Source: Nitrospira sp.
GTDB lineage: Bacteria; Nitrospirota; Nitrospiria; Nitrospirales; Nitrospiraceae
NCBI GenBank assembly: GCA_005116885.1
Contig: SWDP01000042.1
Coordinates: forward strand, 2,398 to 35,708
Length of the DNA: 33,311 nucleotides
Direction: 5' to 3'
The notes beneath the pieces are model-generated. The model was not told the origin of the DNA. It searched no databases and was given only the letters and a program-made list of their open reading frames with translations. The translations under genes and the position numbers were made by a program. Below, piece after piece: positions 6,435 to 27,856 of this stretch (positions are counted from its first letter, which is position 1; every line of letters starts with the position of its first letter).

Positions 6435-6460
6435 TCCCGCGCCCTACCCATCAGGTTGCC

Positions 6461-7855: not shown

Positions 7856-9207
7856 AATCGTTGTCAGCGGCCGATCTGTCCCAGCCTAAGCTGCCTCCTC
7901 AGAATCTGGAGGCCGAGCAATCTGTGCTCGGCGCGGTTCTCCTTGATAATAGTGCGATGGCCAAGGCGATGGAATTGCTGGTCGAAGAGAATTTTTATCG
8001 TACGTCAAATCGAAAGATCTATCGTGCGATGCTGGAGTTGTCGGACGTGGGAGAAGTCATCGATCAGATTACGCTGACGGAACGGTTGAAGGCGCAGGGA
8101 GAAATAGAAGCCGTCGGTGGTGCAGCGTATTTGGCGGAACTTGTACAGAGCGTCGCCAGCTCCGCCAATATCCGCTACCACTGCAAGATCGTGCGCGACA
8201 AGGCGTTGCTGAGAGAGCTGATCCATACTTCCACCGAAGTGCTCACGCGCGGGTACGAAGGCACTTCTTCGGTCGATGACCTGCTCGATTTTGCGGAACG
8301 GTCGGTGTTCAGCATCGTCCAGGGGAAACTGGACCGGTCGTTCACTCCCATCAATTCCATCATTAAGGAAAGTCTCGACCTTGTCGACAAACTGTCGAAG
8401 CGAAAAGAACATATCACCGGTGTTCCCACAGGCTTTTACGATCTCGACGACATCACGGCGGGACTCCAACCCTCGGATCTCGTGGTGATCGCGGGACGGC
8501 CCAGCATGGGAAAGACCAGCCTGGCGCTGGGGATGGCAGCCTATGCCTCCATCCACGCGGGCACCGTGGTCGGAATTTTCAGTCTTGAAATGTCAAAGCC
8601 GCAGATCGTTCTTCGCATGTTGAGTTCGGAAGCGCGGGTCGATTCGCATGGTCTACGAACCGGTAAGCTTCAGAAAGAGGACTGGTGGCGTCTTGCGGAA
8701 GCGGCTGGCCGGCTGGAGCAAGCGCCGATCTTTATCGACGACACCGGTGGTATCACGGTCCAGCAGATGCGGGGTAAAGCACGCCGGTTGAAAGCCGAAC
8801 GGGGGCTGGATCTTTTGATCGTCGACTACCTTCAGCTGATGCAGGGGCGAAGCGACTCGGAGTCCCGTCAACAGGAAATCTCTGATATCTCCCGCTCGCT
8901 CAAGGCGTTGGCAAAAGAACTCAACGTGCCGGTCATCGCGCTGTCGCAGCTCAGCCGCGCAGTGGAAGCGCGAAAGCCGCCGATTCCCATGCTGGCCGAT
9001 CTTCGCGAAAGTGGCGCGATCGAGCAGGATGCCGACGTCGTCATGTTCATTTACCGTGAGGACGTGTATAACCAGGATTCAGAACGGAAGGGCATTGCCG
9101 ATATTCTCGTGCTCAAACATCGCAACGGCCCGATCGGGAGAAAGGAGCTCTTTTTCCACGACCGCTTTGCGAAGTTCGAGAGCCTCGACAACCGAGAAGT
9201 CGTTTGA
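7852..9207 (+). CDS. dnaB: Replicative DNA helicase
   Basis: This is the hexameric 5'-3' helicase that unwinds DNA at the replication fork and recruits primase. The N-terminal collar domain (about residues 14-115, starting LPPQNLEAEQSVLGAVL) is followed by a linker and the RecA-like motor domain: Walker A GRPSMGKTS (215-223), FSLEM with catalytic E246, Walker B LLIVDYLQLM (D325), ALSQLSRAVE, and the DLRESGAIEQDAD region followed by an arginine-rich end. Length (451) is normal and no intein interrupts it. It overlaps hisZ by 4 bases. The neighbouring gene after 74 bases is an unrelated TPR lipoprotein. Confidence 0.97.
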   Translation: MKSLSAADLSQPKLPPQNLEAEQSVLGAVLLDNSAMAKAMELLVEENFYRTSNRKIYRAMLELSDVGEVIDQITLTERLKAQGEIEAVGGAAYLAELVQSVASSANIRYHCKIVRDKALLRELIHTSTEVLTRGYEGTSSVDDLLDFAERSVFSIVQGKLDRSFTPINSIIKESLDLVDKLSKRKEHITGVPTGFYDLDDITAGLQPSDLVVIAGRPSMGKTSLALGMAAYASIHAGTVVGIFSLEMSKPQIVLRMLSSEARVDSHGLRTGKLQKEDWWRLAEAAGRLEQAPIFIDDTGGITVQQMRGKARRLKAERGLDLLIVDYLQLMQGRSDSESRQQEISDISRSLKALAKELNVPVIALSQLSRAVEARKPPIPMLADLRESGAIEQDADVVMFIYREDVYNQDSERKGIADILVLKHRNGPIGRKELFFHDRFAKFESLDNREVV

Positions 9208-9281
9208 CCCAGTGCCGCCCCACTCGTATAATCTTTCTCACTACCACAACCGGATCTAAGTTTGCCAAGAGGAACGTGTAA

Positions 9282-11117
9282 TTGTTCACGACACGAGTCA
9301 TTCTGAGCGAAAAGGCGAGCAGTCGAGTCTCTGCATTGATCTCCAGCGTCATGTGCTGGTTACTTTCCCTGATGGTGGTGGCCTGCGCGAGTGCGCCTCA
9401 GACATCTGAAAAGATACCTGCCTCTGCCGATACGCCGAAGTCAGCATCCTCGACTCATTCCCCCAATGCGACTGCGGCCTATCATTTTATGCTCGGGTAC
9501 CAAGCTGAGCTTGCACAGGACATGGATCGCGCGATTCAAGAATATCAAGCCGCACTGAAAGCGGATCCGGCGTCTCAGTCTGTGAAGGCCAGGCTGGCCA
9601 GTCTTTATTTTTCCCTGGGCGATATGCCGAATGCTGTCAACTATGCGGACCAAGCGGCGGTGGGTCTGAGCCAAGATGGTCAGCTGCTCACACAGATGGC
9701 AGGGATCCTTGCCAGCGCGGGGCAAGGGGAACGTGCAGTGAAATTGTTGGATCGCGCGATCGAGATTGATCAGACATCCGGCGATCCCTATTTTACGAAG
9801 GGACTGTTGCTGCTGAGTCTGAAGCGGCAGCCCGAAGCAGAGCAAGCCATCCGAGCCGGGTTGGCGCGGGCGCCCGAGTCCGCCGTCGGGTATTATCACC
9901 TGGGGCGCATCCTGCTCGATGCGGAGAAAGGGGAGGAGGCCGCAGCGAGTTTGGAGCGGGCGATTGCGGTGAATGCCTCGTTTGAACCTGCCTACCTCGC
10001 GCTGGCTTCGGTGTATGAATCGCGGAAGGCTCCAGATCGAGCGGTTGCCGTGTTGCGAAAATATCTCCAGACGGTGAACTCTCGGAGCCGGGATATCCGG
10101 CATCAGTTGGTTCGGCTCTATGTTGCGACCAAAGATTATCAGGGAGCCAGGAAAGAGTTGACTGATTTGCTGGCGGAGGACCCTTCGGACACTGATGCTC
10201 AGCTACGACTGGCGCTTCTGTATGGAGAAGAAAAAGAATATCCCAAGGCGATCGACCAACTCATCCAAATTCTGAAGGCACGCCCGACAGAACTCAAAAT
10301 CAGAGATTATCTTGGGTATCTCTACGAGGAGTCCAAAGATACGAAGAAGGCCATCGAGACGTATACGTTTAACATTCAACTCGAGCCGTCATATTTCGAG
10401 GGGCATTTGCATCTCGGCCTGTTGTTCTATCGATTGAAGCAGTTCCCCGATGCCGTGACGCACTTGACGAAGGCCATCACGATTAACCCCAAGGCCCCTG
10501 AAGCCCACATTGTTCTGGGGTTGACGTATTTCCAGAAGGATCAGTTCGACGATGCGGCAAAGGTGTTGGAGGACGGGATCGGCCACAACCCAATGAATGC
10601 CGATTTGCACTTCAATCTCGGCACGGTCTACGACAAGCTCAATCGATTCGATGACGTCGTGCGCGTGATGGAGACGGCCATCAAGCTGGACCCCCATCAC
10701 GCCGATGCACTCAATTATCTGGGGTATAGCTACGCCGAGCGGGGCGTCAAGATCGACCAGGCCTTATCTTTGACCAAGCGGGCGGTCGCACTCAAACCGA
10801 GCAATGGGTATTATATCGATAGCCTCGCCTGGGCCTTGTTTAAATCCGGAATGCTCACTGAAGCATTAACGGAAATAAAGCGTGCTGTGGCGCTTACCGA
10901 AGATGATCCGGTGCTCCATGAGCACCTCGGTGATATCTATGCCACGCAACGAAACCTCTCAGAAGCCCGTGAGTCCTGGCTTCGTGCCCTGGAGCTTGAC
11001 CCATCCAATAGTAAGTTGATGGACCGATTCCGTGAAATGGGGATGGGAGATCCGGCCCAAGAGGAACGTATTCAACAGGCCAAACGGCGTGTGCCTGAGA
11101 AAGCGCAGGCGCACTAG
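9282..11117 (+). CDS. TPR-repeat lipoprotein
   Basis: A 611-residue protein made almost wholly of tetratricopeptide repeats (from about residue 62 to 590, roughly fifteen units) behind a lipoprotein signal: a basic N-terminus, a hydrophobic run, then the lipobox VVAC with C35 as the acylated cysteine. The start is TTG at 9282, chosen because AAGAGGAA (9267-9274) sits 7 bases ahead and no ATG lies between there and the signal. Such proteins are usually anchored in the outer membrane or inner-membrane outer leaflet and act as assembly scaffolds, for example for pili or polysaccharide export; the pilus genes lie 490 bases downstream, but nothing visible proves a link. The last residues are basic. 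Partner and role are unknown. Confidence 0.88.
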   Translation: MFTTRVILSEKASSRVSALISSVMCWLLSLMVVACASAPQTSEKIPASADTPKSASSTHSPNATAAYHFMLGYQAELAQDMDRAIQEYQAALKADPASQSVKARLASLYFSLGDMPNAVNYADQAAVGLSQDGQLLTQMAGILASAGQGERAVKLLDRAIEIDQTSGDPYFTKGLLLLSLKRQPEAEQAIRAGLARAPESAVGYYHLGRILLDAEKGEEAAASLERAIAVNASFEPAYLALASVYESRKAPDRAVAVLRKYLQTVNSRSRDIRHQLVRLYVATKDYQGARKELTDLLAEDPSDTDAQLRLALLYGEEKEYPKAIDQLIQILKARPTELKIRDYLGYLYEESKDTKKAIETYTFNIQLEPSYFEGHLHLGLLFYRLKQFPDAVTHLTKAITINPKAPEAHIVLGLTYFQKDQFDDAAKVLEDGIGHNPMNADLHFNLGTVYDKLNRFDDVVRVMETAIKLDPHHADALNYLGYSYAERGVKIDQALSLTKRAVALKPSNGYYIDSLAWALFKSGMLTEALTEIKRAVALTEDDPVLHEHLGDIYATQRNLSEARESWLRALELDPSNSKLMDRFREMGMGDPAQEERIQQAKRRVPEKAQAH

Positions 11118-11609
11118 CATATTCCGTCGCACCTCACAGAGTCCTGATTTCGCCTTGCGATCCACTGCTCCAATAGTGATCTGACCTCAATTAAGATCAT
11201 CTCTTCGAATCCTCTTCTCGGCATCTGACGGACTGATTCGGCTCACTCTACTCACGCCAAACTGTTGTCTTTACTGGCCACTTCTCTCTGGAAGATGGTG
11301 CGCTCCACGAACCGACCTCCTCTGTGGAGAGCAAGTGGAAGCCAGCAACACCTGCACTGTGGATGACAAATATTGGCAGATCAGAGCAAAACCGTGAAAG
11401 GTGAGCCCAAGCATGGCTGTGAGTATGGCAGGCCTCAGACTCATAACTATGCAATATTGCGTGCGCCCCAGCCGTTCATGGCTTGGTCATGTGCCAGGCA
11501 TCGAACCTGCTAGAGGGGTAGGTAACAACAATCGGACGTGAGTTCCGATAAGAGAAAGAAGCAAAGGTGTGAAGGGCCGTCAGTGAACCATCAACAAGGA
11601 GGCAGTACG
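11118..11609. other. Gene-free stretch upstream of pilA
   Basis: No plausible gene is seen in these 490 bases. A small inverted repeat, CTCCAC (11303-11308) with GTGGAG (11324-11329), is present. I looked for a sigma54 promoter (GG-N10-GC with TGGCAC/TTGCA context), common before pilA genes, and did not find a convincing one on the plus strand. The end of the stretch holds the pilA ribosome site AAGGAGG at 11596-11602. The length suggests a long leader or regulatory region for the pilin. Confidence 0.5.
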
Positions 11610-12200
11610 ATGTTGAAGTTATTTCGGAAACAAGAGGGTTTTACCCTCATCGAGTTGATGATCGTCGTGGCGATCATCGGGATCTTGGCGGCCATCGCCA
11701 TCCCGAATTTCTTGCAGTATCAGATGAAGTCGCGCCAGTCTGAGGCGAAGACCAATGTGACGAGCATCAAGACCTCGCAGCTGGCTTTCCAGGGTGAGCG
11801 GGGTTGCTTTGGCTCCTTGGCAGCCATGCCAGCCGTGATGCCCGTTGGAGGGTCAGCAACCATTTGGCCGGCTGCTGAGTTTACGCCCTCTGCTCCGGCT
11901 GTTGGTGCCACGTTCTGTGTTGCCGGCGGAACCAGTACGCTCCCGCTTTGGTCAGACATCGGGTGGGTGCCGTCTGGCCCAACCAGATACCAGTATGTCA
12001 CGAATGCCACTGCGGCTATTACCGCCCTAGGGACAATCTTGACCGGTGTTTGCCCGGCTATGCCTGCTGCAGTAGGTGCACCGACGAATGCTGGATTCGT
12101 TGCCTCGGCGTCAAGCAACCTGAACAGCAACGCGGTGGTTTCAATTTTCATGAATGCGGAAAACAGCAACATGGTTGACTGTACACCGGGCGAGTTCTAA
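11610..12200 (+). CDS. pilA: Type IV major pilin (prepilin)
   Basis: The product (196 residues) is a classical type IVa prepilin: short basic leader MLKLFRKQEG, cleavage after G10, then FTLIELMIVVAIIGILAAIA with the E5 of the mature chain, and the SRQSEAKTN helix continuation typical of deltaproteobacterial-type pilins. The globular domain is Gly/Ala/Pro-rich with four cysteines that could form two disulfides, including one five residues from the C-terminus. Prepilin peptidase PilD would cleave and methylate it; it then polymerises into pili for twitching or attachment. I took ATG 11610, not an in-frame upstream start at 11538, because AAGGAGG lies 7 bases before it and the leader length is right. 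A strong terminator follows the stop. Downstream genes resemble pilGHI. Confidence 0.95.
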   Translation: MLKLFRKQEGFTLIELMIVVAIIGILAAIAIPNFLQYQMKSRQSEAKTNVTSIKTSQLAFQGERGCFGSLAAMPAVMPVGGSATIWPAAEFTPSAPAVGATFCVAGGTSTLPLWSDIGWVPSGPTRYQYVTNATAAITALGTILTGVCPAMPAAVGAPTNAGFVASASSNLNSNAVVSIFMNAENSNMVDCTPGEF

Positions 12201-12225
12201 CCGATAGAACCAAACGGTCGCCACA

Positions 12226-12258
12226 GGCAGGGCTGGCACGCCAGCCCTGCCCTGTCTT
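12226..12258 (+). terminator. Rho-independent terminator after pilA
   Basis: An 11-base perfect stem, GGCAGGGCTGG (12226-12236) with CCAGCCCTGCC (12241-12251), closes a CACG loop, and a T-rich tail (CTGTCTTGTT) follows. ACA and TGT just outside could extend the stem past a bulge. It lies 25 bases after the pilA stop and ahead of the next gene, so it would let the pilin be made in excess over the downstream genes. Confidence 0.85.
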
Positions 12259-12292
12259 GTTGAGAGTTCCTCGGTCCCGAAAGCTCAGCGCT

Positions 12293-13261
12293 ATGGACAT
12301 GTCAGCCAATTCAGCCGGGTCCTCCGGCCCTGCCTCAACCAGTCATGAATGGCACACCCACTTGTCGTCGCGTTCGTGGCTTGGAGGCATACTGCTCGGT
12401 CTCGCCGCCGCCGTCCTCCTCGCAACCGTCCTGGGTCTCCAAATGGAACTCGACCAACGACATGACGAGAGGGCCGGTCGCTTGGAAAGCCTTCGCATGC
12501 TCCCTCGAGGAGAGGTGTTGCGACCGGCCCTCATGGGGTTTCACCACCTGGGAGCCGACATCATCTGGCTGAGGATCGTGCAGGTGCTCGGGGAGCAAGT
12601 CGTCACCGAGCAGGACTACGAGTGGCTGTCCCACGCCCTCGATGTAGTGACGACGCTGGATCCACTGTATATTTATGCCTATGACGCCGGTGGAACGATC
12701 TTGGCTGAACTGGCGCATCGCGTCGATTGGAGCAATCGACTACTCGAAAAAGGAATGAAGGCAAATCCCGCAGCCTGGCGTCTTCCCTTCACCCTCGGTT
12801 TCAATTACTTCTTTCATCTGAACGACTATGTCAAGGCCGGGGAGTATATGGGCCAGGCGGCGAAGATCCCAGGCCGCCCCTTATATGTGGATACGCTCGC
12901 GGCGCGATTGTATGTCGAAGGGAAGAGCCCTTTGCTGGCGCTCCAGTACTTGGAAATCATGATTCAGCAGGCCGAGGATCCTCAGCTTCGCGCGATCTAT
13001 GAGGACAAATACAAAGAAGTCCTCATCGCCCGCGATCTTGGCACGATGGATCTGGCTCTTGCGCGATATCGACAGACTCGCGGGCGAAATCCACAGACGA
13101 TTGCTGATTTGGTCAAGGAGGGATTCGTGGCATCGGTTCCCGAAGAGCCCTTTGGCGGAGAGTATCGTGTGGACCCTGAGACCGGCGAAATCGAGAGCTC
13201 GACTCATCGGGAGCGGCTCCGTTTGCATCGCCCCCCTGGGGCCAATAGTTCTCAAGAATAG
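12293..13261 (+). CDS. Membrane-anchored TPR-like protein of the pilus-linked ABC cassette (PilG-like by position)
   Basis: The 322-residue product has a polar N-terminus, one transmembrane segment (about residues 29-50), then helical repeat-like sequence, and a C-terminal stretch with PEEPFGGEYRVDPETGEIESS, a proline/glycine-rich ending. The start ATG 12293 is chosen because the upstream TTG at 12257 lies inside the pilA terminator tail; an ATG at 12299 is also possible. It is followed after 17 bases by an ABC ATPase gene that itself overlaps a permease gene. In Myxococcus xanthus the order is pilA-pilG-pilH-pilI, where PilH is an ABC ATPase and PilI its permease, all needed for pilus assembly; this gene stands where pilG stands. 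Sequence homology to PilG is not established here; the assignment is by order and topology only. Confidence 0.7.
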   Translation: MDMSANSAGSSGPASTSHEWHTHLSSRSWLGGILLGLAAAVLLATVLGLQMELDQRHDERAGRLESLRMLPRGEVLRPALMGFHHLGADIIWLRIVQVLGEQVVTEQDYEWLSHALDVVTTLDPLYIYAYDAGGTILAELAHRVDWSNRLLEKGMKANPAAWRLPFTLGFNYFFHLNDYVKAGEYMGQAAKIPGRPLYVDTLAARLYVEGKSPLLALQYLEIMIQQAEDPQLRAIYEDKYKEVLIARDLGTMDLALARYRQTRGRNPQTIADLVKEGFVASVPEEPFGGEYRVDPETGEIESSTHRERLRLHRPPGANSSQE

Positions 13262-13278
13262 GTGTGAGGTGAGGAACT

Positions 13279-14241
13279 ATGTCCACCACTGAAACGATTC
13301 TCCAGACGGAAGGACTCACGAAAACCTTCAAAGTAGGGTTCTGGGGGCGTCATGTGACGGTATTGGAAGGACTCAACCTTGGAGTTCAGCGGGGAGAGGT
13401 CTTTGGATTCTTGGGTCCGAACGGGGCGGGGAAGACCACGACCATTAAGATCCTGATGGGATTGATCTATCCGACCGGTGGGCGTGCGACCGTGTTTGGA
13501 CGTCCGGTCGGCGACAGCCGGGCAAAGGCCCGAGTGGGTTTTTTGCCGGAGTCACCCTATTTCTACGATTACCTGACGGCAGCCGAGTTTCTTCAGTTCT
13601 ATGGGCACTTGTTCAGCCTACGTGGAGCCGCATTGGAGAAGCAGGTTACGGAGTTACTTGATATGGTTGGGATGAGTCATGCCAAAAACATGCAGCTGCG
13701 GAAGTTTTCGAAAGGGATGTTGCAGCGGGTTGGGATTGCCCAGGCGTTGATCAACGATCCTGAACTCGTTGTTCTCGATGAACCGATGTCTGGCCTCGAT
13801 CCTGTGGGGCGCAAAGAAATCCGAGACCTCATTCTGCGGCTGAAGGAGAGGGGGAAAACGGTCTTTTTCAGCTCACACATCCTCCACGACGCTGAACTGC
13901 TGTGTGACCGAGTGGCGATCATTCTCAAAGGGCGCATGGTCGCCTGCGGGCGTGTGAGCGAGTTGGTCGGAGAGGGAGCCACCCGGTCGGTTGAAATGGT
14001 CGTCGAGGGGCTCAGCTCGGAGGGGTTGGAACATCTCCGTCCTCTTGCCGAGAAACTCTTGATCCAAGGGAACCAGGTGCTTGTGGTCCTCAGCAATCAG
14101 CAACAGGTTGGAAACGCCTTGGAGATCGTCCGCATTGCGAAAGGCAGCGTGGTCTCGGTGACACCGCAGAAAGGTTCCCTCGAGGAGCTCTTTATCCGTG
14201 AAGTGAAGGGAACGCAATCGAGTTCTCGGGAGGGCCAATGA
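13279..14241 (+). CDS. ABC transporter ATP-binding protein, PilH-like by context
   Basis: An ABC ATPase of the ABC-2/CcmA type, 320 residues. It shows Walker A GPNGAGKTT (46-54), a Q-loop region LPESPYFYDYLTA, the signature FSKGMLQRVGIAQAL (SKGM in place of SGGQ, normal for this subfamily), Walker B ELVVLDEP, the D-loop SGLDP and the switch His in FFSSHIL. Residues after about 225 form an extra C-terminal domain. It overlaps the permease gene by ATGA (14238-14241), so the two make one complex. The substrate is not evident; position behind a pilin suggests a pilus assembly role like PilH of Myxococcus. Without that context it would be called a generic ABC-2 exporter ATPase. Confidence 0.9.
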   Translation: MSTTETILQTEGLTKTFKVGFWGRHVTVLEGLNLGVQRGEVFGFLGPNGAGKTTTIKILMGLIYPTGGRATVFGRPVGDSRAKARVGFLPESPYFYDYLTAAEFLQFYGHLFSLRGAALEKQVTELLDMVGMSHAKNMQLRKFSKGMLQRVGIAQALINDPELVVLDEPMSGLDPVGRKEIRDLILRLKERGKTVFFSSHILHDAELLCDRVAIILKGRMVACGRVSELVGEGATRSVEMVVEGLSSEGLEHLRPLAEKLLIQGNQVLVVLSNQQQVGNALEIVRIAKGSVVSVTPQKGSLEELFIREVKGTQSSSREGQ

Positions 14242-14999
14242 GAGTCCTGTCAATCGCATTCAACACGTTCCGAGAAAATATCAGAGAGAAATTACTCTAT
14301 AACCTGCTCATCTTTGCGCTCCTGATGATCGGGAGTTCCATCTTGCTTACCCGCCTGACCGTAGGAGAGTGGGATCGCCTCATCATCAATCTCGGCCTCT
14401 CAAGTATCAACTTCTTCGGTGTGCTCATCGCCATCTTCGTAGGCATAAGTCTGGTCAGTAAAGAAATCGACAAGAAGACCATTTATACGATTCTATCCAA
14501 GCCGGTGCCACGCTATGAGTTCCTGCTGGGAAAGTATCTCGGGCTCATGATTACACTGTTTGTCAATACGGTCGTGATGGTGGCGGGTCTATTGGCGGTC
14601 ATGGCCTATCTCAATGCTCCTGTGACCCTGCTGTTGTTCGAAGCGCTAGGATTCATCTTTTTGGAGCTAATGGTCATTACCGCCGTGGCCTTGCTGTTTT
14701 CGACGTTTACCAGCGCGACGTTGAGCGCGATCTTCACTCTGGCGATCTATGCGGTGGGACATCTATCGACCGATCTGAAACAGTTCGGGGCTCAGATGGA
14801 TAGTGTAGGGAAGGCAGCCCTCAACGCGATCTACTATGTCCTGCCGAATCTCGAGCGGTTCAATCTCAAAGGCCAGGTCATTCACCATGTGAAAATAAGT
14901 GGAACCGATGTGTTGTTGACCACTGCCTATGGTCTGGCATACGCAGGACTCTTGCTCGTCCTTGCCAGCATTATCTTCCAGCGACGGGACTTTCAATAG
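14238..14999 (+). CDS. ABC-2 type transporter permease, PilI-like by context
   Basis: A 253-residue integral membrane protein with about six hydrophobic segments (roughly residues 20-37, 50-73, 105-127, 133-157, 160-178 and 228-247). The motif SKEIDKKTIYTILSKPVPRYEFLLGKY between helices 2 and 3 is characteristic of ABC-2 permeases of the NosY type and probably forms the coupling surface to the ATPase. The start overlaps the ATPase stop. It forms the membrane half of the exporter-like complex downstream of pilA. No terminator is evident in the 121 bases after it. Confidence 0.88.
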   Translation: MRVLSIAFNTFRENIREKLLYNLLIFALLMIGSSILLTRLTVGEWDRLIINLGLSSINFFGVLIAIFVGISLVSKEIDKKTIYTILSKPVPRYEFLLGKYLGLMITLFVNTVVMVAGLLAVMAYLNAPVTLLLFEALGFIFLELMVITAVALLFSTFTSATLSAIFTLAIYAVGHLSTDLKQFGAQMDSVGKAALNAIYYVLPNLERFNLKGQVIHHVKISGTDVLLTTAYGLAYAGLLLVLASIIFQRRDFQ

Positions 15000-15120
15000 A
15001 CGCGCCGTTCAGTCAGCTGTTGGCCCTGCGCTTGTATTCGTCCTCCAACCCATGTATTGATAGTAAAATCATGTCCGGTCGCTCCAACGTGACTCATGGC
15101 GGACGACCAGTTAGGTATCA

Positions 15121-16239
15121 ATGAACATCCCTCTCCTTGACCTCAAAGCCCAGTTCCAGCCCCTTCGCAATGAGATTCTCGCGGTGGTACAAACCGTTTG
15201 TGACGAACAGGGCTTTATTCTGGGGCCCCGCGTCGTGGCGTTCGAGGAATCCGTTGCCCGGTACATCGGCAGCCGCTATGCGATTGGTTGCGCGTCTGGG
15301 AGCGATGCGCTGCTGCTTTCTCTCATGGCGATGGGCGTGAAAGCTGGCGATGAGGTGATCACCATTCCATTTACGTTTTTTGCCACGGCGGGCGCGATTT
15401 CACGATTGGGTGCGAAGCCCGTCTTTGTCGACATTCAGCCGGATACGTTTAATATCGATCCGGCGCTCATTGAGCGAGCGATCACGCCTCGGACGAAAGC
15501 CATCATTCCCGTTCATCTCTTCGGGCAATGTGCGGACATGGCGGCGATCAATGAGATTGCAACGCGGAAAAAGTTATATGTCATTGAAGATGCCTGCCAA
15601 GCGATTGGCGCGGCGCAGCAAGAGCAGCGCGCCGGGATACTTGGAGACACCGGGTGTTTTAGCTTTTTCCCCAGCAAGAATTTGGGCGGGTTTGGAGATG
15701 GGGGGCTTATCACGACCAACGACAAAGCTCTTGCCGACTCCATGGCCATGCTTCGTGTTCATGGAAGTCAGGTCCGCTATCTTCACGAAGTTATAGGATT
15801 CAATAGTCGACTCGATGCGCTTCAGGCTGCCGTGCTTCAGGTGAAATTACAGTATCTTGATCAGTGGAACGAGGGGCGCCGCCGGAATGCCGAACGGTAT
15901 CGGCAGTTGTTCGCCCGGACGAAGCAGGTAGACTGTGTCGTGCTGCCCCCGACGAGACCTGGAAATTTCCATGTGTACAACCAGTTCACGGTTCGAGTGC
16001 CGAAGCGCGACGAGTTGCGCGCATTCCTCAAAGAAAAAGGGGTCGGTACAGAAGTGTATTATCCGCTCCCGATGCATCTCCAAAATTGCTATCGTGAGTT
16101 AGGGCATGAAAAAGGATCGTTCCCTCTGTCAGAACAGGCGGCTGAAGAAGTCATGTCTATCCCGATCTATCCGGAATTGACAGAGGCACAGCAAGGCTAC
16201 GTTGTTGAGACGATTGCGGAGTTCTATCGACGCGACTAG
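15121..16239 (+). CDS. DegT/DnrJ/EryC1/StrS-family sugar aminotransferase
   Basis: A fold-type I PLP aminotransferase of the family that aminates nucleotide-linked keto-sugars for O-antigen, capsule or glycan synthesis. Length (372) is normal. Landmarks are the opening IPLLDLKAQ, CASGSDALLL near residue 60, TIPFTFFATAGAISRLGAKPVFVDI, EDACQAIGA, and FSFFPSKNLGGFGDGG with the Schiff-base lysine K186. The C-terminal GVGTEVYYPLPMHLQ is also family-typical. No sugar dehydratase or acetyltransferase gene is adjacent, so the specific amino sugar cannot be named. It lies 121 bases after the ABC permease on the same strand and might supply a sugar for pilin or surface glycan decoration; that is only a guess. 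Confidence 0.92.
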   Translation: MNIPLLDLKAQFQPLRNEILAVVQTVCDEQGFILGPRVVAFEESVARYIGSRYAIGCASGSDALLLSLMAMGVKAGDEVITIPFTFFATAGAISRLGAKPVFVDIQPDTFNIDPALIERAITPRTKAIIPVHLFGQCADMAAINEIATRKKLYVIEDACQAIGAAQQEQRAGILGDTGCFSFFPSKNLGGFGDGGLITTNDKALADSMAMLRVHGSQVRYLHEVIGFNSRLDALQAAVLQVKLQYLDQWNEGRRRNAERYRQLFARTKQVDCVVLPPTRPGNFHVYNQFTVRVPKRDELRAFLKEKGVGTEVYYPLPMHLQNCYRELGHEKGSFPLSEQAAEEVMSIPIYPELTEAQQGYVVETIAEFYRRD

Positions 16240-16564
16240 CCGTGCTCACGTCAGTGTTGCTACACGATGGTTGCGAGAACAAGGTGTGAGAGTGGAACTT
16301 GGTGAGGAACGTCGTGGCCTACCGGACAAATGCACCCGTGTCCGATCAACCAGCAATCCTGTCAGTTTAATCCAAAACCAAAGCCGTCCAGCTTCCTCCG
16401 CCTGATCTTTTCGTAAGCTCCCCAGAAAAGTAGGCAGGTCATAAAGAGAACTTTCTGGCAGTGACGTTGGCCCCGTTCTGAGACGGTTGGTAACGAGAAC
16501 CGGTCGCGTCTTCGGCCATTTCGTTTACCTCACAAAGCCGCCAACGGATTTCTTCAGCGTCCTA
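16240..16564. other. Gene-free stretch between converging genes
   Basis: These 325 bases separate the aminotransferase stop from the ilvD fragment stop. I see no plausible gene, no clear terminator hairpin with a T tract on either strand, and no copy of the hairpin repeats found elsewhere in the window. Confidence 0.5.
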
Positions 16565-17602
16565 CTACGTCGTAATGGCTCCTTCAGAAGCCGACGAAAC
16601 ATGCCGCGCGTATTTTCCCATTACGCCTGAGGTGTAACGGGGCAACGGCTGTTTCACTTTCTTGAGCCGGGCCTTGATCTCTTTCTGCGAGAGCTCCACG
16701 GTCAGGGTCCGTTTGGCGATATCGAAGACAATCATGTCACCGTTTTTCACCGCGCCGATCGGGCCGCCTTTGATGGCTTCCGGTGCGACATGGCCGGCCA
16801 TGAGCCCATGGGTGGCCCCGGAGAAGCGGCCGTCGGTGAGGAGCGCGACGGAGTCGCCCAGGCCTGCACCGACAATGGCCGCGGTGACGCCGAGCATTTC
16901 TCTCATGCCTGGTCCGCCTGACGGACCTTCATACCGAATCACGACAACATCGCCCGCTTTGATTTGACGGGACTGCACGGCGACAAACGCATCCTCTTCC
17001 CGGTCATAGACCTTCGCCGGGCCGCGAAATGTCATGATCGAGTGTCCGGCCACCTTCACGACGCAGCCCTCTGGAGCAAGGTTTCCCCGTAATATCACCA
17101 GCCCGCCGGTCTGCTTGATCGGATTCGCCAGAGGTCTGAGGACTTGTTGCCCGGATGTTTCCTTCGCGTTCTTGGCCTCTTCCCCGATCGTCCGGCCGGT
17201 TACGGTCGGTTGACCGGCATGCAAGAGACCGGCATCGAGCAGCCGCTTGGCGACTAAGGTGGTTCCTCCAGCGGCAAAGAGGTCTGAGGCTGTAAATCGC
17301 CCACCTGGCTTGAGGTCTGCGAGCAACGGGACCTTCCGATTGATTTTGTCGAAGTCGTCGATGCTTAATTTAATGTTGGCTTCGCGGGCGATGGCGAGCA
17401 AGTGCAAGACCGCATTCGTCGAGCCGCCGGTCGTTGCCACCGCGGCGATCGCGTTTTCCAGCGATTTTCGCGTGATGATCTGGCGAGGCCGCAGATCTCG
17501 CTTCAGCAGATCCATGACCATCTTCCCGCACTCGAAGGCCACGTCGTCCTTCCGCTGATCCATGGCCGGTACTCCGTTCCGTCCCATCGGCGAGATGCCG
17601 AG
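16565..17602 (-). pseudogene. ilvD: Dihydroxy-acid dehydratase, C-terminal fragment (5' end missing)
   Basis: IlvD dehydrates dihydroxy-isovalerate and dihydroxy-methylvalerate in valine, isoleucine and leucine synthesis. Only about 345 residues of a family of about 560 remain: from [20 protein letters not shown] through [44 protein letters not shown] and a normal C-terminus ending at 16565. The match begins exactly where family members read EALG, just after the CGGMYTANTM-type motif; all N-terminal iron-sulfur cysteine ligands are therefore missing. Going upstream on the minus strand, the codon before LG is TTC and the next in-frame codon but one is TAA (17608-17606). The missing end coincides with the missing 5' end of the AmgK-like gene on the other strand. 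As it stands it cannot make an active enzyme. Confidence 0.9.
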
Positions 17603-17976
17603 GAATTATCGATTTTCAAGACGCGTTGATGGGGCCGGTCACGTACGATCTCGCCTCGCTGTTGCGCGATGCCTATATCGAACTCGATGAGGCGCTGATC
17701 GACCGCTTGATCGACCGCTATCTCGATGGATTGGCAAGGCATCGGCAGGTATGGACTGACCGAGAGGCCTTCCGCCGCCTGTTCGACCTGACAAGCATTC
17801 AACGGAACCTCAAGGCGGCAGGGCGATTTGTCTACATCGATCGCGTCAAAGGCAATCCTAAGTTCCTTGCCGACATTCCGCGTGTCTTGGGTTATGTCAA
17901 ACGCAATCTCCAGAAGTATCCTGAATTGGACCAGCTCAGGATACATCTCACCCCGTATGTGCCGGAGCTGCAGTGA
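17602..17976 (+). pseudogene. amgK: AmgK-like sugar kinase (aminoglycoside phosphotransferase fold), C-terminal fragment
   Basis: AmgK phosphorylates MurNAc and GlcNAc at the anomeric position in the cell-wall recycling route that leads to UDP-MurNAc. The visible part begins [20 protein letters not shown], where the first Asp is the metal-binding DFG-like residue of the phosphotransferase fold, and runs to TPYVPEL about 125 residues later. The N-terminal lobe and the catalytic HRDxHxxN loop, which should lie just upstream, are absent; instead the sequence changes to the ilvD fragment in antisense. The downstream gene is murU-like, the usual partner of amgK, which supports the identification. 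Without the catalytic loop the fragment should be inactive. In-frame starts near 17626 are unlikely to be real. Confidence 0.82.
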
Positions 17977-18035
17977 TGCGTGAGCTGTGATGAGTGGAAT
18001 GCGGAGGGCCAAAGTGATTCCCATCGAGTCTGACC

Positions 18036-18056
18036 CATCACTCATCACTCATCACC
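18036..18056. repeat. Heptanucleotide array CATCACT x3
   Basis: Three head-to-tail heptamers, CATCACT, CATCACT and CATCACC, end 13 bases before the murU start codon. CACTCATCAC inside it can pair with GTGATGAGTG at 17987-17996, giving a hairpin of 10 base pairs just after the amgK stop. It is too short and lacks spacers to be a CRISPR array. Compare the heptamer arrays at 20492 and 27784. Confidence 0.7.
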
Positions 18057-18069
18057 GTTCACTTTCGTT

Positions 18070-18810
18070 ATGAAGGCCATGATTCTCGCAGCGGGCTTGG
18101 GGACTCGTCTGAGACCGCTGACGAATACGACTCCGAAGCCGCTTCTTCCCATCGCGGGCACGCCGTTGATTGTCTGGAATCTTTTGCTGTTGAAGCGGCA
18201 CGGGTTCCACGATGTGGTCATCAATCTGCACTACCTCGGGCCGATGATCGAGCAGGCGTTGGGCGATGGCTCGCGGTATGGCTTGCGGATCATCTATTCA
18301 CACGAACCAGTCATTTTAGGTACGGGGGGCGGCCTCAAACAGGCAGAGCCGCACTTTTCAGGAGAGTCGGTGTTGGTGCTCAACGGCGATACGCTCGTGG
18401 ATCTCGATCTTGGCGCGTTGTGTCAGTTCCATCACCAGCGCGAGGCTGTCGCGACGCTGGTTCTACGGAAAGATTCTGAGGCGGCACGGTGGGGCCTTGT
18501 GGAAATGGATTCAGGTAACCGCATCGTGCGAATCACTGGGCGTGGACGCGAAGATCTGGCGCCGACCCAGCCTCGTATGTTTGCCGGGATTCATGTGCTC
18601 CATACGCGGCTCTTGCGTGATGTGCCGAAGGGTGTGGCCTCGACCGTCATCGACCCCTATGTGGCGGCGATTCAGCAGGGAGAGACGGTGCTCGGGTATG
18701 ATTGTGAGGGATATTGGTCGGACATCGGAACGCCGGAGCGATATGCGCAAGCCGAACAAGATGCAGCAGCCGGTCGTATTACTCTCGCCTCCAGACAGCT
18801 ACCCGTATAA
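18070..18810 (+). CDS. murU: Nucleotidyltransferase, MurU-like (MurNAc-1-phosphate uridylyltransferase)
   Basis: A 246-residue sugar-1-phosphate nucleotidyltransferase: MKAMILAAGLGTRLRPLTN with the nucleotide-binding loop, TPKPLLPIAGTPLI, VLNGDTLVDLD with the metal-binding Asp, and GYWSDIGTPERY near the end. The short length without a left-handed beta-helix and the AmgK-like gene directly upstream fit MurU, which makes UDP-MurNAc from MurNAc-1-phosphate and so bypasses MurA/MurB. Mannose-1-phosphate guanylyltransferase is the alternative, since the families are hard to separate by motif. The gene itself is intact, but its kinase partner is truncated here. The ATG is 93 bases after the amgK stop with a heptamer array just before it and no clear Shine-Dalgarno. 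Confidence 0.8.
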   Translation: MKAMILAAGLGTRLRPLTNTTPKPLLPIAGTPLIVWNLLLLKRHGFHDVVINLHYLGPMIEQALGDGSRYGLRIIYSHEPVILGTGGGLKQAEPHFSGESVLVLNGDTLVDLDLGALCQFHHQREAVATLVLRKDSEAARWGLVEMDSGNRIVRITGRGREDLAPTQPRMFAGIHVLHTRLLRDVPKGVASTVIDPYVAAIQQGETVLGYDCEGYWSDIGTPERYAQAEQDAAAGRITLASRQLPV

Positions 18811-19027
18811 CAGGATGCTGAAAAGAGATAGGGAGTGGCCAGGTGCCCTTCTTGCTCGCAGAACGCGCACGATAAGAATGTGCTCGTTCGATGCGCGCAG
18901 TAAAGGGCAGCCTCGGCCACTCCCTTAAAGAGAAATGGAGAGAATGCGAGCGGCCTTGTTTGGGTAAAGGAGAGTCTCGGCACGCATGGGTTGGGCGGGT
19001 GAGAAAGTTTGAACTTTTTGAGCATCC
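18811..19027. mobile_element. MITE-like element with terminal inverted repeats and a large internal hairpin
   Basis: The left end GGATGCTGAAAAG (18813-18825) and the right end CTTTTTGAGCATCC (19014-19027) are near-perfect inverted copies. Inside, GGGAGTGGCC (18831-18840) pairs with GGCCACTCCC (18915-18924), GCCCTT (18845-18850) with AAGGGC (18903-18908), and GAACGCGCAC (18861-18870) with GTGCTCGTTC (18880-18889, 9 of 10), so about 95 bases can fold into one long hairpin. There is no coding sequence. It begins directly after the murU stop. Non-autonomous elements of this build are moved in trans by a transposase; no target duplication is obvious. The folding itself is seen directly; mobility is inference. 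Confidence 0.65.
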
Positions 19028-19112
19028 GGCGGGAATGTTTTTCCGTTATGCCGCGCCTGCGAACCATCGAAGGTCGAGAGTGCTACAGTAGATTTCCTGA
19101 AGCCTATTGGAG

Positions 19113-20483
19113 CTATTCCAGCTCCTCTTTCTCTTTTTGCTGCTTCAGCAATCGGGCCAGGTAGGTACGTTGGAGTTTGAGGCGGTCTGCCGCTTTGCTC
19201 TGATTGCCATCCGCTTCCTCAATTGCTCGTTCGATAATGTAGCGGCTATGTGCTTCAATTGACTCATGGTAGGGAAGGGAGAGATAGGGGAGGAGTTCAC
19301 CCGGTTTGGTATGGCCCATGGCGTCCAACGACAGCATATCCGGTTCGATGGTATCCGATTGGTTCAAGACGACGGCCCGTGCCACGACGTTTTCCAGTTC
19401 GCGAATGTTTCCTGGCCACGGGTGCCGGCTCATGGCCGCCATGGCTGCGAGGCTGAACATCATGCCGGGGCGTTTCGCCTCTCTCGCGTGCCGATTCAAA
19501 AAAAACTTGGCTAAAGCAGGGATGTCCTCGGGTCGTTCGCGGAGCGGGGGCAGGGTCAGGTTGATGACATTCAGCCGGAAAAAAAGATCCTCGCGAAACT
19601 GACCGGCCTTCACGGCCTGTTGGAGATTTTTGTTCGTAGCGGCAATGATGCGAATATTGACCGACACGAGACGTGTGCCGCCGACTCGATGGAACTCTCT
19701 ATCCTGGAGCACACGCAAGAGCTTGGCTTGTAGCGGGAACGACATGTCTCCGATCTCGTCCGGGAAGATCGTGCCTCCCTCCGCCATCTCCAATTTACCT
19801 TTTTGCAGGCGATCCGCGCCGGTGAAGGCGCCGCGCTCATGCCCGAAAAGTTCGTTTTCGAGCAGCGTTTCCGTGAGGGCGACACAGTTGATGACCACCA
19901 GCGGCATGTTCTGGCGCAGACTCCACTGGTGGATGGAGCGAGCGAAGAGTTCCTTGCCTGTCCCGCTTTCACCAAGCAGCAACACGCTGGCATCGGACTT
20001 CGCGGCGCGTTGGGCGGACTCCATCACTGCCCGGATCTTCACGCTCATCCCCACTATCGACGCGTAGCGGCCGTCGATTTCTGATTTGAGACAGGCCACC
20101 TGCCGTTTGAGGCTGTCACGCTCTATGGCTTTCCCGATCACGATGAGGAGGTGGTCTTTGTCCAGCGGCTTGGTCAGAAAATCGTAGGCGCCGGCCTTCA
20201 TGGCTTCAACGGCGGCATCAATCGAGGCATGGGCGGTCATGACGATCACAGGGAGATCTTCCGCCGGCCTGACTTTTTGGAGCCGTTTGAGGACCTCGAT
20301 GCCTGTCAGTCGCGGCATATCGAGGTCGAGCAACATGAGGTGCGGAGCTTCCTGCTCGACCAGATCGAGCGCTTCTACCCCATCTCGCGCGATCACAGTT
20401 CCATAGTCGGAAGCCTGCAGGCGATCCTCCAACATCGTGGCAATATCGGGATCGTCGTCGACGATGAGAATTTTAGCCTTCAT
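19113..20483 (-). CDS. NtrC-family sigma54-dependent response regulator (orphan)
   Basis: A 456-residue two-component regulator that would activate sigma54 promoters. Receiver domain 1-120 with acidic pocket D10/D11, phosphoacceptor D53 (LLDLDMP), T83 and K105. The AAA+ domain (about 142-375) has Walker A GESGTGKE (171-178), the sigma54-contacting GAFTGA loop (218-223), and an arginine-finger region RLNVINLTLPPLRERPEDI. The C-terminal Fis-type helix-turn-helix (about 415-450) reads ADGNQSKAADRLKLQRTYLARLL. Oddity: Walker B reads GGTIFPDEIG, with P241 where Leu is usual (codon 19763-19761, CCG instead of CTG). No histidine kinase lies next to it, so its signal is unknown. The start is followed upstream by a heptamer array; the DUF1015 gene is 75 bases away on the same strand. 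Confidence 0.95.
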   Translation of the reverse strand: MKAKILIVDDDPDIATMLEDRLQASDYGTVIARDGVEALDLVEQEAPHLMLLDLDMPRLTGIEVLKRLQKVRPAEDLPVIVMTAHASIDAAVEAMKAGAYDFLTKPLDKDHLLIVIGKAIERDSLKRQVACLKSEIDGRYASIVGMSVKIRAVMESAQRAAKSDASVLLLGESGTGKELFARSIHQWSLRQNMPLVVINCVALTETLLENELFGHERGAFTGADRLQKGKLEMAEGGTIFPDEIGDMSFPLQAKLLRVLQDREFHRVGGTRLVSVNIRIIAATNKNLQQAVKAGQFREDLFFRLNVINLTLPPLRERPEDIPALAKFFLNRHAREAKRPGMMFSLAAMAAMSRHPWPGNIRELENVVARAVVLNQSDTIEPDMLSLDAMGHTKPGELLPYLSLPYHESIEAHSRYIIERAIEEADGNQSKAADRLKLQRTYLARLLKQQKEKEELE

Positions 20484-20491
20484 CAGAGCCC

Positions 20492-20514
20492 CGTGAAACG
20501 TGAAACGTGAAACG
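20492..20514. repeat. Heptanucleotide array CGTGAAA x3
   Basis: Three exact head-to-tail copies of CGTGAAA (20492-20498, 20499-20505, 20506-20512) plus CG. On the coding strand of the response regulator it is TTTCACG x3 and ends 8 bases before the ATG at 20483, leaving room only for GGGGCTCTG. The same unit occurs in the array at 27784-27853. Confidence 0.8.
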
Positions 20515-20558
20515 CGGGTCTATGTTCAACGCGAGAGCCATCACGGTATGCCTACCCC

Positions 20559-21884
20559 TCACGGGTTTTCCATCACGTTTATTACAAGACCCGTCAGCGG
20601 TTTCGGAAAGAAGTATGTCGATTTGTGGGGCATGCGTTCGCCGGCCGTTGCGACGGCTTGCACTTCGGTGACTTTTGTTGCGTTGAGTAGCAGTGCCCCT
20701 GTTCCCGTTCCCTTCGCGACCCAGTCCAAGGCTTCATGGTCGTCCTTTGTATAGAGGATGGCCTCTTGCTCTTGTTGCGTTGGACACAGTGCTGCGACGA
20801 CGAGTTGTTGGAGTAGCGATACATCGAGCTTGGTGCGAGGAGAGGCTTGCGCGGATGGACGATGGGCCGGTTTTAGGCTGAGTGTGACGTAGCGCAGATC
20901 CCCCTTCAGCGCCAGCCCGAAGACCGGAATGGTTCGTCCAGTCGAACGCATCGTCTCGATAAATTTCGCGCGAGTGGCTGCCTGCGTAGCCGCAGTAAAG
21001 GGAAATTCCTGCAGGTCGAATGTAGCACTCAGCAATGATTGCACATGGTCATACGGAGGCAGGGGTGTGGTTGTCACCCGATGTGTCGGGAGGACGGTTA
21101 AGCCTGGGTCTTCGAGGGCGGTCAGGAGCATCAGCACGCTGTCATATGGTTGCCGGTCGGCCAGTGATCCGTTCTGTTGCCGACGGAGTTTCTGATAGTT
21201 TAACGCGGTCTCGTAGCGATGATGACCGTCGGCAATAAACAGCGGTGTGCTGCGCAGGGTCTCGACGGCCTGCTTCAGCACGGATGGATCGGTCACGGCC
21301 CAGAGTTGCTGACGGAACCCCACATCGTCACGAAAATCGACCTGCGCGGGTTTCCCCTTCACAGCCCCTTCCAGTAAGCTCATCACGGCTCCTTGAGGGT
21401 CGGAGTAGAGCGACCAAATAGGGCTGAAGTTCGCCTTGCAGGCTTCGAGCAGATTCAAGCGATCCGTTTTAGCCGCCGAACGAGTATTCTCGTGCGGATA
21501 GATATGCCCCGAATCGAGTGCTTCCAGTTTGACCGTGGTGAGAATGCCCTTGAGAGTTTTGGTCGGTGAGCCGGGCGCAGCATAGGGCGCGGTGTATTCG
21601 ATCGTATGATAGTAGAGGGTCGGCTCTGTGTCACGTTTCAGCGCCCCGTTCTTCAGCCAGTCGCAAAGGGTCAATGCGGCGCGGGTGTATCGATTATGGG
21701 TTGGACCGTCACCGGGTTGATCGAGTCCCAATTCGAGTCGAATGATGTTCTGTTGATGGCGATCGTGCAAGGCCTTCTGCCCGGCCGCATCGATAATGTC
21801 GTAGGGTGGAGCCACGACCTGTGTGATATCTCCGACAACTGTCGTATCGTATCGCACGCCATGAAACGGAATGATCGTCGACAT
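20559..21884 (-). CDS. DUF1015-family protein
   Basis: A 441-residue member of the DUF1015 family (Pfam PF06245), whose biochemical function is not established. Family wording includes IIPFHGVRYD at the start, VVAPPYDIID, ENTRSAAKTDRLNLLEACKANFSPIW, and FIADGHHRYETAL near the middle. No signal peptide or membrane segment is seen. The start at ATG 21884 is preceded by AAGGA with 7 bases of spacing, so longer in-frame extensions upstream are not used. It lies between a polyprenyl diphosphate synthase gene and the response regulator on the same strand, probably one transcript, with gaps of 124 and 75 bases. In other genomes these proteins often sit near serine biosynthesis genes, but that does not apply directly here. 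Confidence 0.92.
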   Translation of the reverse strand: MSTIIPFHGVRYDTTVVGDITQVVAPPYDIIDAAGQKALHDRHQQNIIRLELGLDQPGDGPTHNRYTRAALTLCDWLKNGALKRDTEPTLYYHTIEYTAPYAAPGSPTKTLKGILTTVKLEALDSGHIYPHENTRSAAKTDRLNLLEACKANFSPIWSLYSDPQGAVMSLLEGAVKGKPAQVDFRDDVGFRQQLWAVTDPSVLKQAVETLRSTPLFIADGHHRYETALNYQKLRRQQNGSLADRQPYDSVLMLLTALEDPGLTVLPTHRVTTTPLPPYDHVQSLLSATFDLQEFPFTAATQAATRAKFIETMRSTGRTIPVFGLALKGDLRYVTLSLKPAHRPSAQASPRTKLDVSLLQQLVVAALCPTQQEQEAILYTKDDHEALDWVAKGTGTGALLLNATKVTEVQAVATAGERMPHKSTYFFPKPLTGLVINVMENP

Positions 21885-22008
21885 AGCAAAGTCCTTTACT
21901 GCGGTAAGTGGTTGAAGTCGTGGTGGCGTAAAGATCTGAGGGTGGAACCTTTTCTGCTGCGCGTGTCTTCCGATGGCTCCGGAGGCATAGAATTCGCGGG
22001 GAGGGAGG

Positions 22009-23016
22009 TTATCGATCGCGGGTGACCATATAATCGGCGGCCACCGAGAGGGCTCGCTTGGCCGTACTGTCTTCGAATTGATTGAGATCTCGTTGGGCCA
22101 TGGCGATGTAGGATCGAGCGCAATCCATCGCATAGGTGATTGAGCCGAATTCCTCCATCAAGCGAATGAACCGCCCGAGGTCTTCCTCTGTCAAGGTTCT
22201 GGTTTCCATCCGGTCGATAATCATCTGCCGGTCTTGTTCTGAACAATGATGCAGCAGATGGAGCAACGGAAGTGTGGCCTTGCCTTGGCAGAGGTCCTGT
22301 CCCAAAGATTTGCCCAAGTGTTCTTCATTGGCTGTATAGTCGAGGGTGTCGTCAGCCACTTGGAAGGCGATTCCCAGGTGTCGCCCGAACCGGAAGAGCG
22401 CTTCCTGCTGGGCCTCTGAGGCGTCTGCGAGCATGGCGCCCATGCGACAAGCGGCGGCAATCAGTCCTGCCGTTTTGTATTCGACGATTTTCAGGTATTC
22501 TGCCTCCGACATCGAAGGGTTGCCGTTGTAATAGAGCTGAAGGACTTCGCCTTCCGCCATCTTCTTGCAAGCCTCGCCGAGTACGTCGTTAATGCCATGG
22601 TTCCGAAAGTCGACGATCTGACAGAAGGCTTTGGAGTAGAGGTAGTCACCTACGAGGATGCTGATCTGGTTGCCCCAAACTTTTCTGGCGGTCGGTCGGC
22701 CCCGGCGGATATCGGCCTCATCGACCACATCGTCGTGGAGCAGGGACGCCGTATGAATGAACTCTACCAGGCTCGCGAGTTGGTGATGCTCGTGACCGGT
22801 ATAGCCGCAGAGACGTGCAGAGAGTACGAGGAAGAATGGTCGAATTCGTTTTCCACCACTGTTGAGAATGTGCGCGGCGACGGTATTGACGAGGGCCACA
22901 CTGGAGTCGAGGTTCGTTCGAGCCTGTCGTTCCATCCCTTCCAACTCATCGCGGTACGCCTCCCAGACGTCCGCCATGCTGTTGATCGTAGAGGTAATAA
23001 TTGGGCTGTGGGGCAT
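22009..23016 (-). CDS. Polyprenyl (trans-isoprenyl) diphosphate synthase
   Basis: It elongates farnesyl or geranylgeranyl diphosphate with isopentenyl diphosphate to the long chain of the respiratory quinone. The two aspartate-rich motifs are DDVVDEAD (DDxxD, 95-99) and DDTLD (222-226); GGKRIRPFF (54-62) binds isopentenyl diphosphate, with RRGRP at 104-108. Length (335 from ATG 23016) fits the octaprenyl/heptaprenyl class (IspB-like); the exact chain length cannot be read from sequence. A second ATG at 22977 (product MADVWEAYRDEL) may be the true start because a promoter-like pair ends right at 23016. It appears to head a transcript with the DUF1015 and regulator genes. It is divergent from gltB with about 245 bases between. 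Confidence 0.93.
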   Translation of the reverse strand: MPHSPIITSTINSMADVWEAYRDELEGMERQARTNLDSSVALVNTVAAHILNSGGKRIRPFFLVLSARLCGYTGHEHHQLASLVEFIHTASLLHDDVVDEADIRRGRPTARKVWGNQISILVGDYLYSKAFCQIVDFRNHGINDVLGEACKKMAEGEVLQLYYNGNPSMSEAEYLKIVEYKTAGLIAAACRMGAMLADASEAQQEALFRFGRHLGIAFQVADDTLDYTANEEHLGKSLGQDLCQGKATLPLLHLLHHCSEQDRQMIIDRMETRTLTEEDLGRFIRLMEEFGSITYAMDCARSYIAMAQRDLNQFEDSTAKRALSVAADYMVTRDR

Positions 23017-23023
23017 GGGGCGG

Positions 23024-23053
23024 ATGGTAGGGCAGAAAAGGAAACAAAGTCAA
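23024..23053 (-). promoter_or_regulatory. Sigma70-like promoter for the polyprenyl synthase gene
   Basis: On the minus strand TTGACT (23053-23048, 5 of 6) and TACCAT (23029-23024, 4 of 6) are 18 bases apart. Initiation would fall at about 23017, so the message is either leaderless from ATG 23016 or translated from ATG 22977. Consensus match only. Confidence 0.3.
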
Positions 23054-23108
23054 GCTGTTGACCCCTTTAGGGGGCATGCCGGAACGGATCATGTGTGCGG
23101 AGGGAATC

Positions 23109-23135
23109 TTGACAGAAGAATCGTGCTTCTATTAA
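23109..23135 (+). promoter_or_regulatory. gltB: Sigma70-like promoter for gltB
   Basis: TTGACA (23109-23114) and TATTAA (23130-23135, 4 of 6) lie 15 bases apart, slightly short of the optimum; ATTAAG one base later gives 16. It is about 120 bases upstream of the gltB start, leaving a leader in which no riboswitch was recognised. The leader ends with two phased heptads (CGAGATA, CGAACGA at 23248-23261) reaching into the ATG; a 16-base stretch here is identical to 27824-27839 before gltD. Confidence 0.4.
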
Positions 23136-23260
23136 GGTGAGCACATTGGATACGAGCGGAATTCTCCTTGTGAGTGAGGGAGTTATCTATCGTGGTTGCC
23201 TTTCTGGTGTAGCCTCAGTCCAGTAGCGTACACGCCTCCATTTCTAACGAGATACGAACG

Positions 23261-27781
<4,521 letters not shown>

Positions 27782-27783
27782 GA

Positions 27784-27853
27784 CGTGAAGCGTTATTCGT
27801 GAAGCGTGAAACGTTTTGCGAGGAACGAGATACGAACGACGTACGACGAGTTA
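27784..27853. repeat. Ten phased heptads, each beginning CG, before gltD
   Basis: Read from 27784 in steps of seven, the units are CGTGAAG, CGTTATT, CGTGAAG, CGTGAAA, CGTTTTG, CGAGGAA, CGAGATA, CGAACGA, CGTACGA and CGAGTTA: all ten start with CG and then T or A. The array fills almost the whole gap between the gltB stop and the gltD ATG at 27857. It looks like an old heptamer array that has diverged; it shares CGTGAAA with the array at 20492 and two whole units with the bases just before gltB. Confidence 0.75.
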
Positions 27854-27856
27854 AGA

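Follow-up and report, generated by a model that had tools for sequence, protein, structure and literature searches.

The locus at which a truncated ilvD gene meets a truncated kinase gene in this draft Nitrospira genome (G000) is probably not a real biological feature. The junction is best explained as a mis-join in metagenome assembly, a reading that is favoured over a real deletion and is given a probability of about 0.75. The 3′ part of ilvD (minus strand) meets that of an AmgK-like kinase gene (plus strand), with 0-2 bases common to both and without intervening N (Table 1). The window is the whole stretch of DNA that was analysed (33,311 nucleotides, G000:C2:2398-35708). Because it is N-free between its flanking 100-N runs, the join predates scaffolding if those runs are scaffold gaps. 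An earlier inspection, referred to here as the sequence-only reading, had both genes cut at one shared base, near 17602, and joined head to head. The geometry is borne out, and the shared base is corrected to an ilvD end at 17605 and a kinase start at 17606-17608.

Table 1. Positions in the window of the junction, the two gene fragments and their neighbours.
Feature	Position	Strand	Remarks
Whole window	1..33311		Single N-free piece between 100-N runs C2:2298-2397 and C2:35709-35808 of scaffold C2
DegT-family aminotransferase, left flank	15121..16239	+	Placed as in relatives
ilvD 3′ part (dihydroxy-acid dehydratase)	16565..17605	-	Residues ~211-557 of a 557-residue relative; listed ORF 16565-17587
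Junction	17605..17608		ilvD homology to 17605, kinase homology from 17606-17608; 0-2 nt shared; no N
APH-family AmgK-like kinase 3′ part	17606..17976	+	About the last 123 of 367 residues; reading frame ends at 17976
MurU-like nucleotidyltransferase, intact	18070..18810	+	Follows the kinase, as in relatives; score 192 bits (curated cut-off 250)
Response regulator, NtrC type (named by eye), right flank	19113..20483	-	Placed as in relatives

The ilvD fragment encodes the last ~346 residues of its protein and is 95% identical to the intact protein of relative G005. The C-terminal domain PF24877 is present throughout its length (positions 1-191 of 191, E 6e-75), the match to Pfam ILVD_EDD_N starts only at profile position 174 or 175 of 316, and the score of 419.5 bits misses the TIGR00110 whole-protein cut-off of 618.15 bits. 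Set against IlvD as described by TIGR00110 and by PF00920 with PF24877, the fragment keeps the C-terminal ~346 residues and lacks the N-terminal ~211 together with four cysteines: Cys 52, 125, 191 and 197 of the intact G005 protein all lie before the cut, the fragment beginning at ~211. The cysteines of the N-terminal half of IlvD are presumably the ligands of its [2Fe-2S] cluster. A complete ilvD elsewhere in G000, for which the sequence-only reading had proposed a search, was not found: the fragment alone matches PF00920 in this genome, and searching with a full-length IlvD recovered nothing beyond it, with no N-terminal half.

The kinase fragment covers positions 190-237 of 239 in the APH profile and is one of six PF01636 matches in G000. 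Its resemblance to AmgK-like sugar kinases (NF045759, PF01636) consists of the C-terminal ~123 residues, the IDFQD motif and the MurU-like neighbour; in contrast to them it lacks the N-terminal part and the catalytic loop. The catalytic loop of APH kinases has the motif H-x-D-x4-N; in the intact G005 kinase it reads HRDYHSRN and precedes the point of the cut, so that the window lacks it. The AmgK cut-off of NF045759 (550 bits) is reached neither by the fragment (90 bits) nor by the intact G005 kinase (171 bits), and the kinase is at best AmgK-like. A solved relative is 3csv, annotated as an aminoglycoside phosphotransferase. The losses named in the sequence-only reading, the N-terminal iron-sulfur cysteines of IlvD and the catalytic loop of the kinase, are thus both seen, and the downstream murU, there described as intact, is indeed whole.

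A long hairpin follows murU at window 18830-18925 (GGGAGTGGCC...GGCCACTCCC); the stretch 18825-19040 folds better than 200 of 200 shuffles (z -5.3) and has no Rfam match. The DnaB protein of the window (7852-9207) has 451 residues and no intein, and that of G031 (L190:5310-7928) has 872 residues with an apparent intein, judged by eye.

The position of the junction is sharply defined by comparison with the genus. When window 17302-17902 was compared by BLASTN with 31 other genus genomes, 30 had matches and none had one spanning the junction. A few short pieces elsewhere aside, ilvD-side matches stop at query 304-306 and kinase-side matches begin at query 301-307; the exceptions on the kinase side are G003, which starts at 319 at the start of a contig, and G034, which starts at 525 and whose kinase is itself cut. 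The first two residues of GIIDFQDA derive mostly from ilvD sequence, the intact G005 kinase having G-V-I-D-F at this place. The sharpness of the junction and the truncation of both genes are confirmed as real observations, far beyond chance. The 4-6 shared bases that might have suggested a deletion driven by microhomology came from the ends of BLAST matches; the letters themselves give 0-2, and that mechanism was rejected.

In relatives the two genes are separate and divergent. Both lie on one contig in 14 relatives and are divergent in 13 (G001, G005, G007, G011, G015, G017, G020, G021, G027, G035, G036, G040 and G043), where the parts kept in the window are 3.6-21.0 kb apart. The fourteenth, G023 (same order, one contig), breaks the rule with both genes on one strand, 508 kb apart. 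Among the 30 relatives searched, ilvD is matched in 29, with the kept stretch in one frame of 546-625 residues in 26, spread over two contigs in G008 and G025 and only partial and distant (51%) in G026. The kinase is matched in 27, in a frame of at least 359 residues in 26, with that of G003 beginning at the contig end. In the near relative G036, 11,435 bases separate the positions of the two cuts (L170 4233 and 15669), so that ~11.4 kb is missing from the window: both 5′ gene ends, dnaJ-like and ttuA-like genes, galT and other genes. The gene content of the interval varies across the genus and includes two small genes, dnaJ-like and ttuA-like genes, galT and, as identified by eye, genes resembling MarC, GH57 (without an NCBIfam match) and VanZ. 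The nearest genome by identity at the junction is G041 (98% and 95%), which has a whole ilvD and a kinase at the start of another contig; because the two lie on different contigs, the distance between them is unmeasurable.

The flanks of the junction follow the order seen in relatives, with degT on the left and murU, the response regulator, gltB and gltD on the right. Because both flanks keep this order, a single loss describes the geometry. The sequence-only reading had proposed exactly this, one event removing both 5′ ends and everything between two divergent genes, and the proposal fits 13 of 14 relatives, the flank order of G036 and the synteny comparison that it had suggested. It had also raised an inversion, and an inversion or translocation that joined the two cut genes here and their 5′ halves elsewhere would indeed give the same local letters. 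Such an event is unneeded, however, as gene order and strand on either side agree with G036, and neither the N-terminal half of ilvD nor the searched 7.5 kb of the interval was found in G000; for this assembly it is contradicted and barely credible.

Three DNA queries were used to look for the interval in G000, each run without a positive control. With all candidates scored, neither the G036 stretch from the ilvD N-terminal half to dnaJ (2,851 bases) nor a G005 stretch (4,725 bases) gave a match; the G036 stretch from ttuA to GH57 (4,614 bases) gave only five pieces of 27-47 bases among the best 40 of 54 candidates. The G036 queries cover 7.5 of the 11.4 kb, and the other ~4.0 kb lies mostly next to or in the kinase 5′ end, with the rest between dnaJ and ttuA. 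The same kind of query recovers relatives down to 79% identity, as in the BLASTN of the junction window. The searched part thus turned up neither at contig ends nor elsewhere in the bin of G000, and the missing interval may lie outside the bin.

The G005 interval also contains an abundant repeat of ~130-220 bases (L040:11004-11224, L040:3090-3224), found in G000 at places such as L188:11535-11748. The two stretches account for most of 123 matches in G000; a single place often has several, in both orientations, as expected of a palindrome, and the best 40 of 284 candidates were scored. The window carries only pieces of 21-28 bases of it. The hairpin after murU was considered as a copy and rejected, with only 21 bases in common. 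Deletion at flanking repeats was likewise set aside: the repeat lies in the G005 interval, but the cuts in the window fall inside coding sequence.

The status of the genome bears directly on how the junction is to be read. G000 is a draft of 3,186,592 bases in 49 contigs, 83.9% complete and scaffolded with 100-N and 10-N runs, which supports a mis-join; there are 10 N runs in 46 of its loci (175,415 bases, overlaps counted twice) and 7 in 98.5 kb of C16. A mis-join is also supported by further N-free cuts at unrelated places. The leuA gene of G000 reaches only to profile position 318 of 494 because of a blunt, N-free loss of 763 bases at L203:12126/12127 (G000:C16:78125) relative to G036, G032 and G041. 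In sister drafts, N-free losses affect murU, gltB and a site ~0.7 kb from ilvC in G036 (L170:16233, L092:17197, L204:10156), the kinase (760 bases) and ilvD in G034, and ttuA in G032; within the ttuA of G034, ~135 bases are also locally duplicated. In G032, TtuA is recognizable for its first 83 residues, after which the sequence becomes unrelated and contains transposase-like fragments, recognized by eye (L173:18300-19501, L189:1-4800); G032 also lacks the DNA between ttuA and ilvD. A length of 760-768 bases recurs in three blunt losses that are otherwise unrelated, each in a different draft genome (L203:12126, L204:10156, L175:9185).

When read by eye against imperfect parents, eight junctions have 0-2 bases in common. 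By computation a random join yields 0-2 shared bases in 95% of cases, and an overlap of this size, being also compatible with blunt biological joining, does not by itself exclude the latter. Over ~98 kb of C16, no unmarked loss in G000 relative to both G036 and G032 is larger than the leuA cut. Smaller ones occur at 66467 (285 and 167 bases; G041 has no break there) and at 138172-138181 (132 and 209 bases), and G036 has one large unmarked loss. Near C2:40.28 kb, a 195-base loss overlaps the end of an ORF but lies for the most part beyond it. G000 also carries a 2.65-kb segment (C16, L203:2938-5594) that is absent from G032 and G041; its ends overlap by 4-10 bases in BLAST, as a mobile element would give.

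Truncations are more frequent in loci from sand filters than in others, which also argues for a mis-join. A census of 13 reference genes scored internal truncations away from contig ends and N runs in the 80 named loci listed among 306 matches to the kinase, all 80 being Nitrospira or Nitrospirota records. Scoring required matches of at least 55% identity and gaps of at least 25 residues, lying away from contig ends and N runs; the last rule removed the G036 gltB cut. Internal truncations number 3 among 70 scorable genes in the sand-filter loci (titles with RSF or CG24, n=10) and 3 among 441 in the others (Fisher P 0.036). Counted by locus, cuts are found in 3/10 and 2/70 (Fisher P 0.013), and these small numbers rest on few events. 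Beyond the sand-filter loci the cuts fall in L147 and L156 (three genes), two divergent loci whose cuts may be real variation. G000 is probably part of the sand-filter series, to judge from gap style and kinship. For the named sand-filter drafts, the available text of PMC8751384 describes assembly with IDBA-UD, reassembly with metaWRAP and scaffolding with MeDuSa, and reports intraspecies diversity. In the portion of PMC7111523 at hand, local assembly errors in metagenome bins are suspected to be most prominent with IDBA-UD, and fragmentation is ascribed to co-existing strains.

Under the favoured reading, the draft would have been assembled and binned from short metagenomic reads and the mis-join would have arisen there. 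Assembly would break in ilvD, where Nitrospira species are locally near-identical; the 3′ ends of ilvD and the kinase would then be joined without gap letters, and the ~11.4 kb seen in G036, with both 5′ gene ends, would be lost from the bin. The living cell would presumably carry the interval, related species would have co-existed in the sample, and the step making the join would be the assembler, the reassembly or the scaffolder. The splitting of ilvD over two contigs in G008 and G042 marks the gene as a recurrent break point and, with the high local identity to G041 and G036, supports a mis-join. At 17470-17569 the identity is 98% to G041 and 97% to G036, and the identical run ending at 17605 extends over 32 and 23 bases, respectively. 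The window resembles the local assembly errors of metagenome-assembled genomes in its N-free, gene-cutting joins and low completeness, and metagenome fragmentation in breaking where relatives are near-identical, as far as these are described in the same portion of PMC7111523; it differs in that the mis-join is judged from sequence and not from reads. The chimeric contig, which the sequence-only reading had named as an alternative, has become the favoured explanation, given the unmarked cuts in G000 and its sister drafts and the draft status.

Several observations weigh against a mis-join. The searched part of the missing interval appears nowhere else in the bin, contig ends included. Both flanks are equal in identity to G041 and G036 (90.8-92.2%), and the joining of two species was rejected since sliding identity has no step at the junction. 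Identity beside the cut is uneven (at 17370-17469, 95% to G041 and 87% to G036), the identical run ending at 17605 is 0-15 bases long in nine other loci tested, and the sister draft G032 has, over the ~98 kb of C16, no unmarked loss on which G000 and G036 agree. MeDuSa scaffolding as sole cause is inadequate, because its joins, by default 100-N runs, should appear as such; other joins are marked by 100 N and the junction has no N run. Since 11 kb is beyond the reach of paired short reads, an additional step would be required for the join to be purely artefactual. The N-free contig and the missing interval would be explained together if the assembler had taken, instead of the majority sequence, either a deletion variant carried by a minority of a mixed population or a chimeric molecule from the library, and the intraspecies diversity of the named sand-filter drafts (PMC8751384, in the text available) is in keeping with this. 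Such an origin would, however, call for at least two events of the kind in one genome, at ilvD-kinase and at leuA, and is highly improbable.

The main competitor to a mis-join is a real deletion of ~11 kb, comprising both 5′ ends and the intervening genes, in the sampled population or most of it. The sequence is contiguous and N-free with the ancestral order, and the searched interval is missing from the bin. The leuA cut is a further point in its favour and one against a mis-join, since leuA and ilvD both serve branched-chain amino acid synthesis, the pattern expected of real pathway decay; outside the window, ilvC and leuA were the genes examined for such decay. However, ilvC is whole in seven of nine genomes, G000 included (the main match in G031 covers profile positions 54-314, and there is none in G034), while leuA is above its curated cut-off in six of nine and partial in G000, G034 and G009. 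With ilvC intact, leuA cut and the sister-draft cuts in unrelated genes, decay confined to branched-chain amino acid genes was rejected.

Intact ilvD is missing from six of 32 genus genomes, being partial in G000 and G034 and absent from G031, G032, G009 and G038. The count rests on an IlvD protein query in 15 genomes and on the search for relatives' ilvD in the other 17, with G008 and G042, in which the gene is split over contigs, counted as having it. The five genomes besides G000, two of them 94-95% complete, speak for real loss, and in G031 and G032, where transposase-like fragments (named by eye) accompany the absence, the loss of ilvD may be real. Completeness alone, however, leads one to expect 3.2 of 32 genomes without intact ilvD, and six are not clearly above this (P for six or more = 0.08). 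With the junction in none of the 31 other genomes searched and similar-looking N-free cuts in unrelated genes of sister drafts, a real deletion is unlikely.

For the biology of the organism, the sequence-only reading had drawn from the junction, if real, a loss of branched-chain amino acid synthesis at this locus and of the MurNAc kinase step. The cut leuA of G000 is in favour of the branched-chain part of that claim, but the claim as a whole is not sustained in view of the intact ilvC, the cuts in unrelated genes of sister drafts and a draft that is 84% complete. Because unmarked joins remove parts of conserved genes, gene-absence calls such as auxotrophy or missing cell-wall recycling are unsafe in G000 and its sister drafts, and untrustworthy without reads. 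Under a real deletion, neighbours would have to supply the cell with branched-chain amino acids and pantothenate precursors. That the deletion is both real and fixed, leaving a Nitrospira nitrifier without ilvD, leuA and the AmgK-like kinase and fed branched-chain amino acids by neighbours, is quite unlikely; if true, it would represent a clear amino-acid dependence in a nitrifier commonly taken as self-sufficient.
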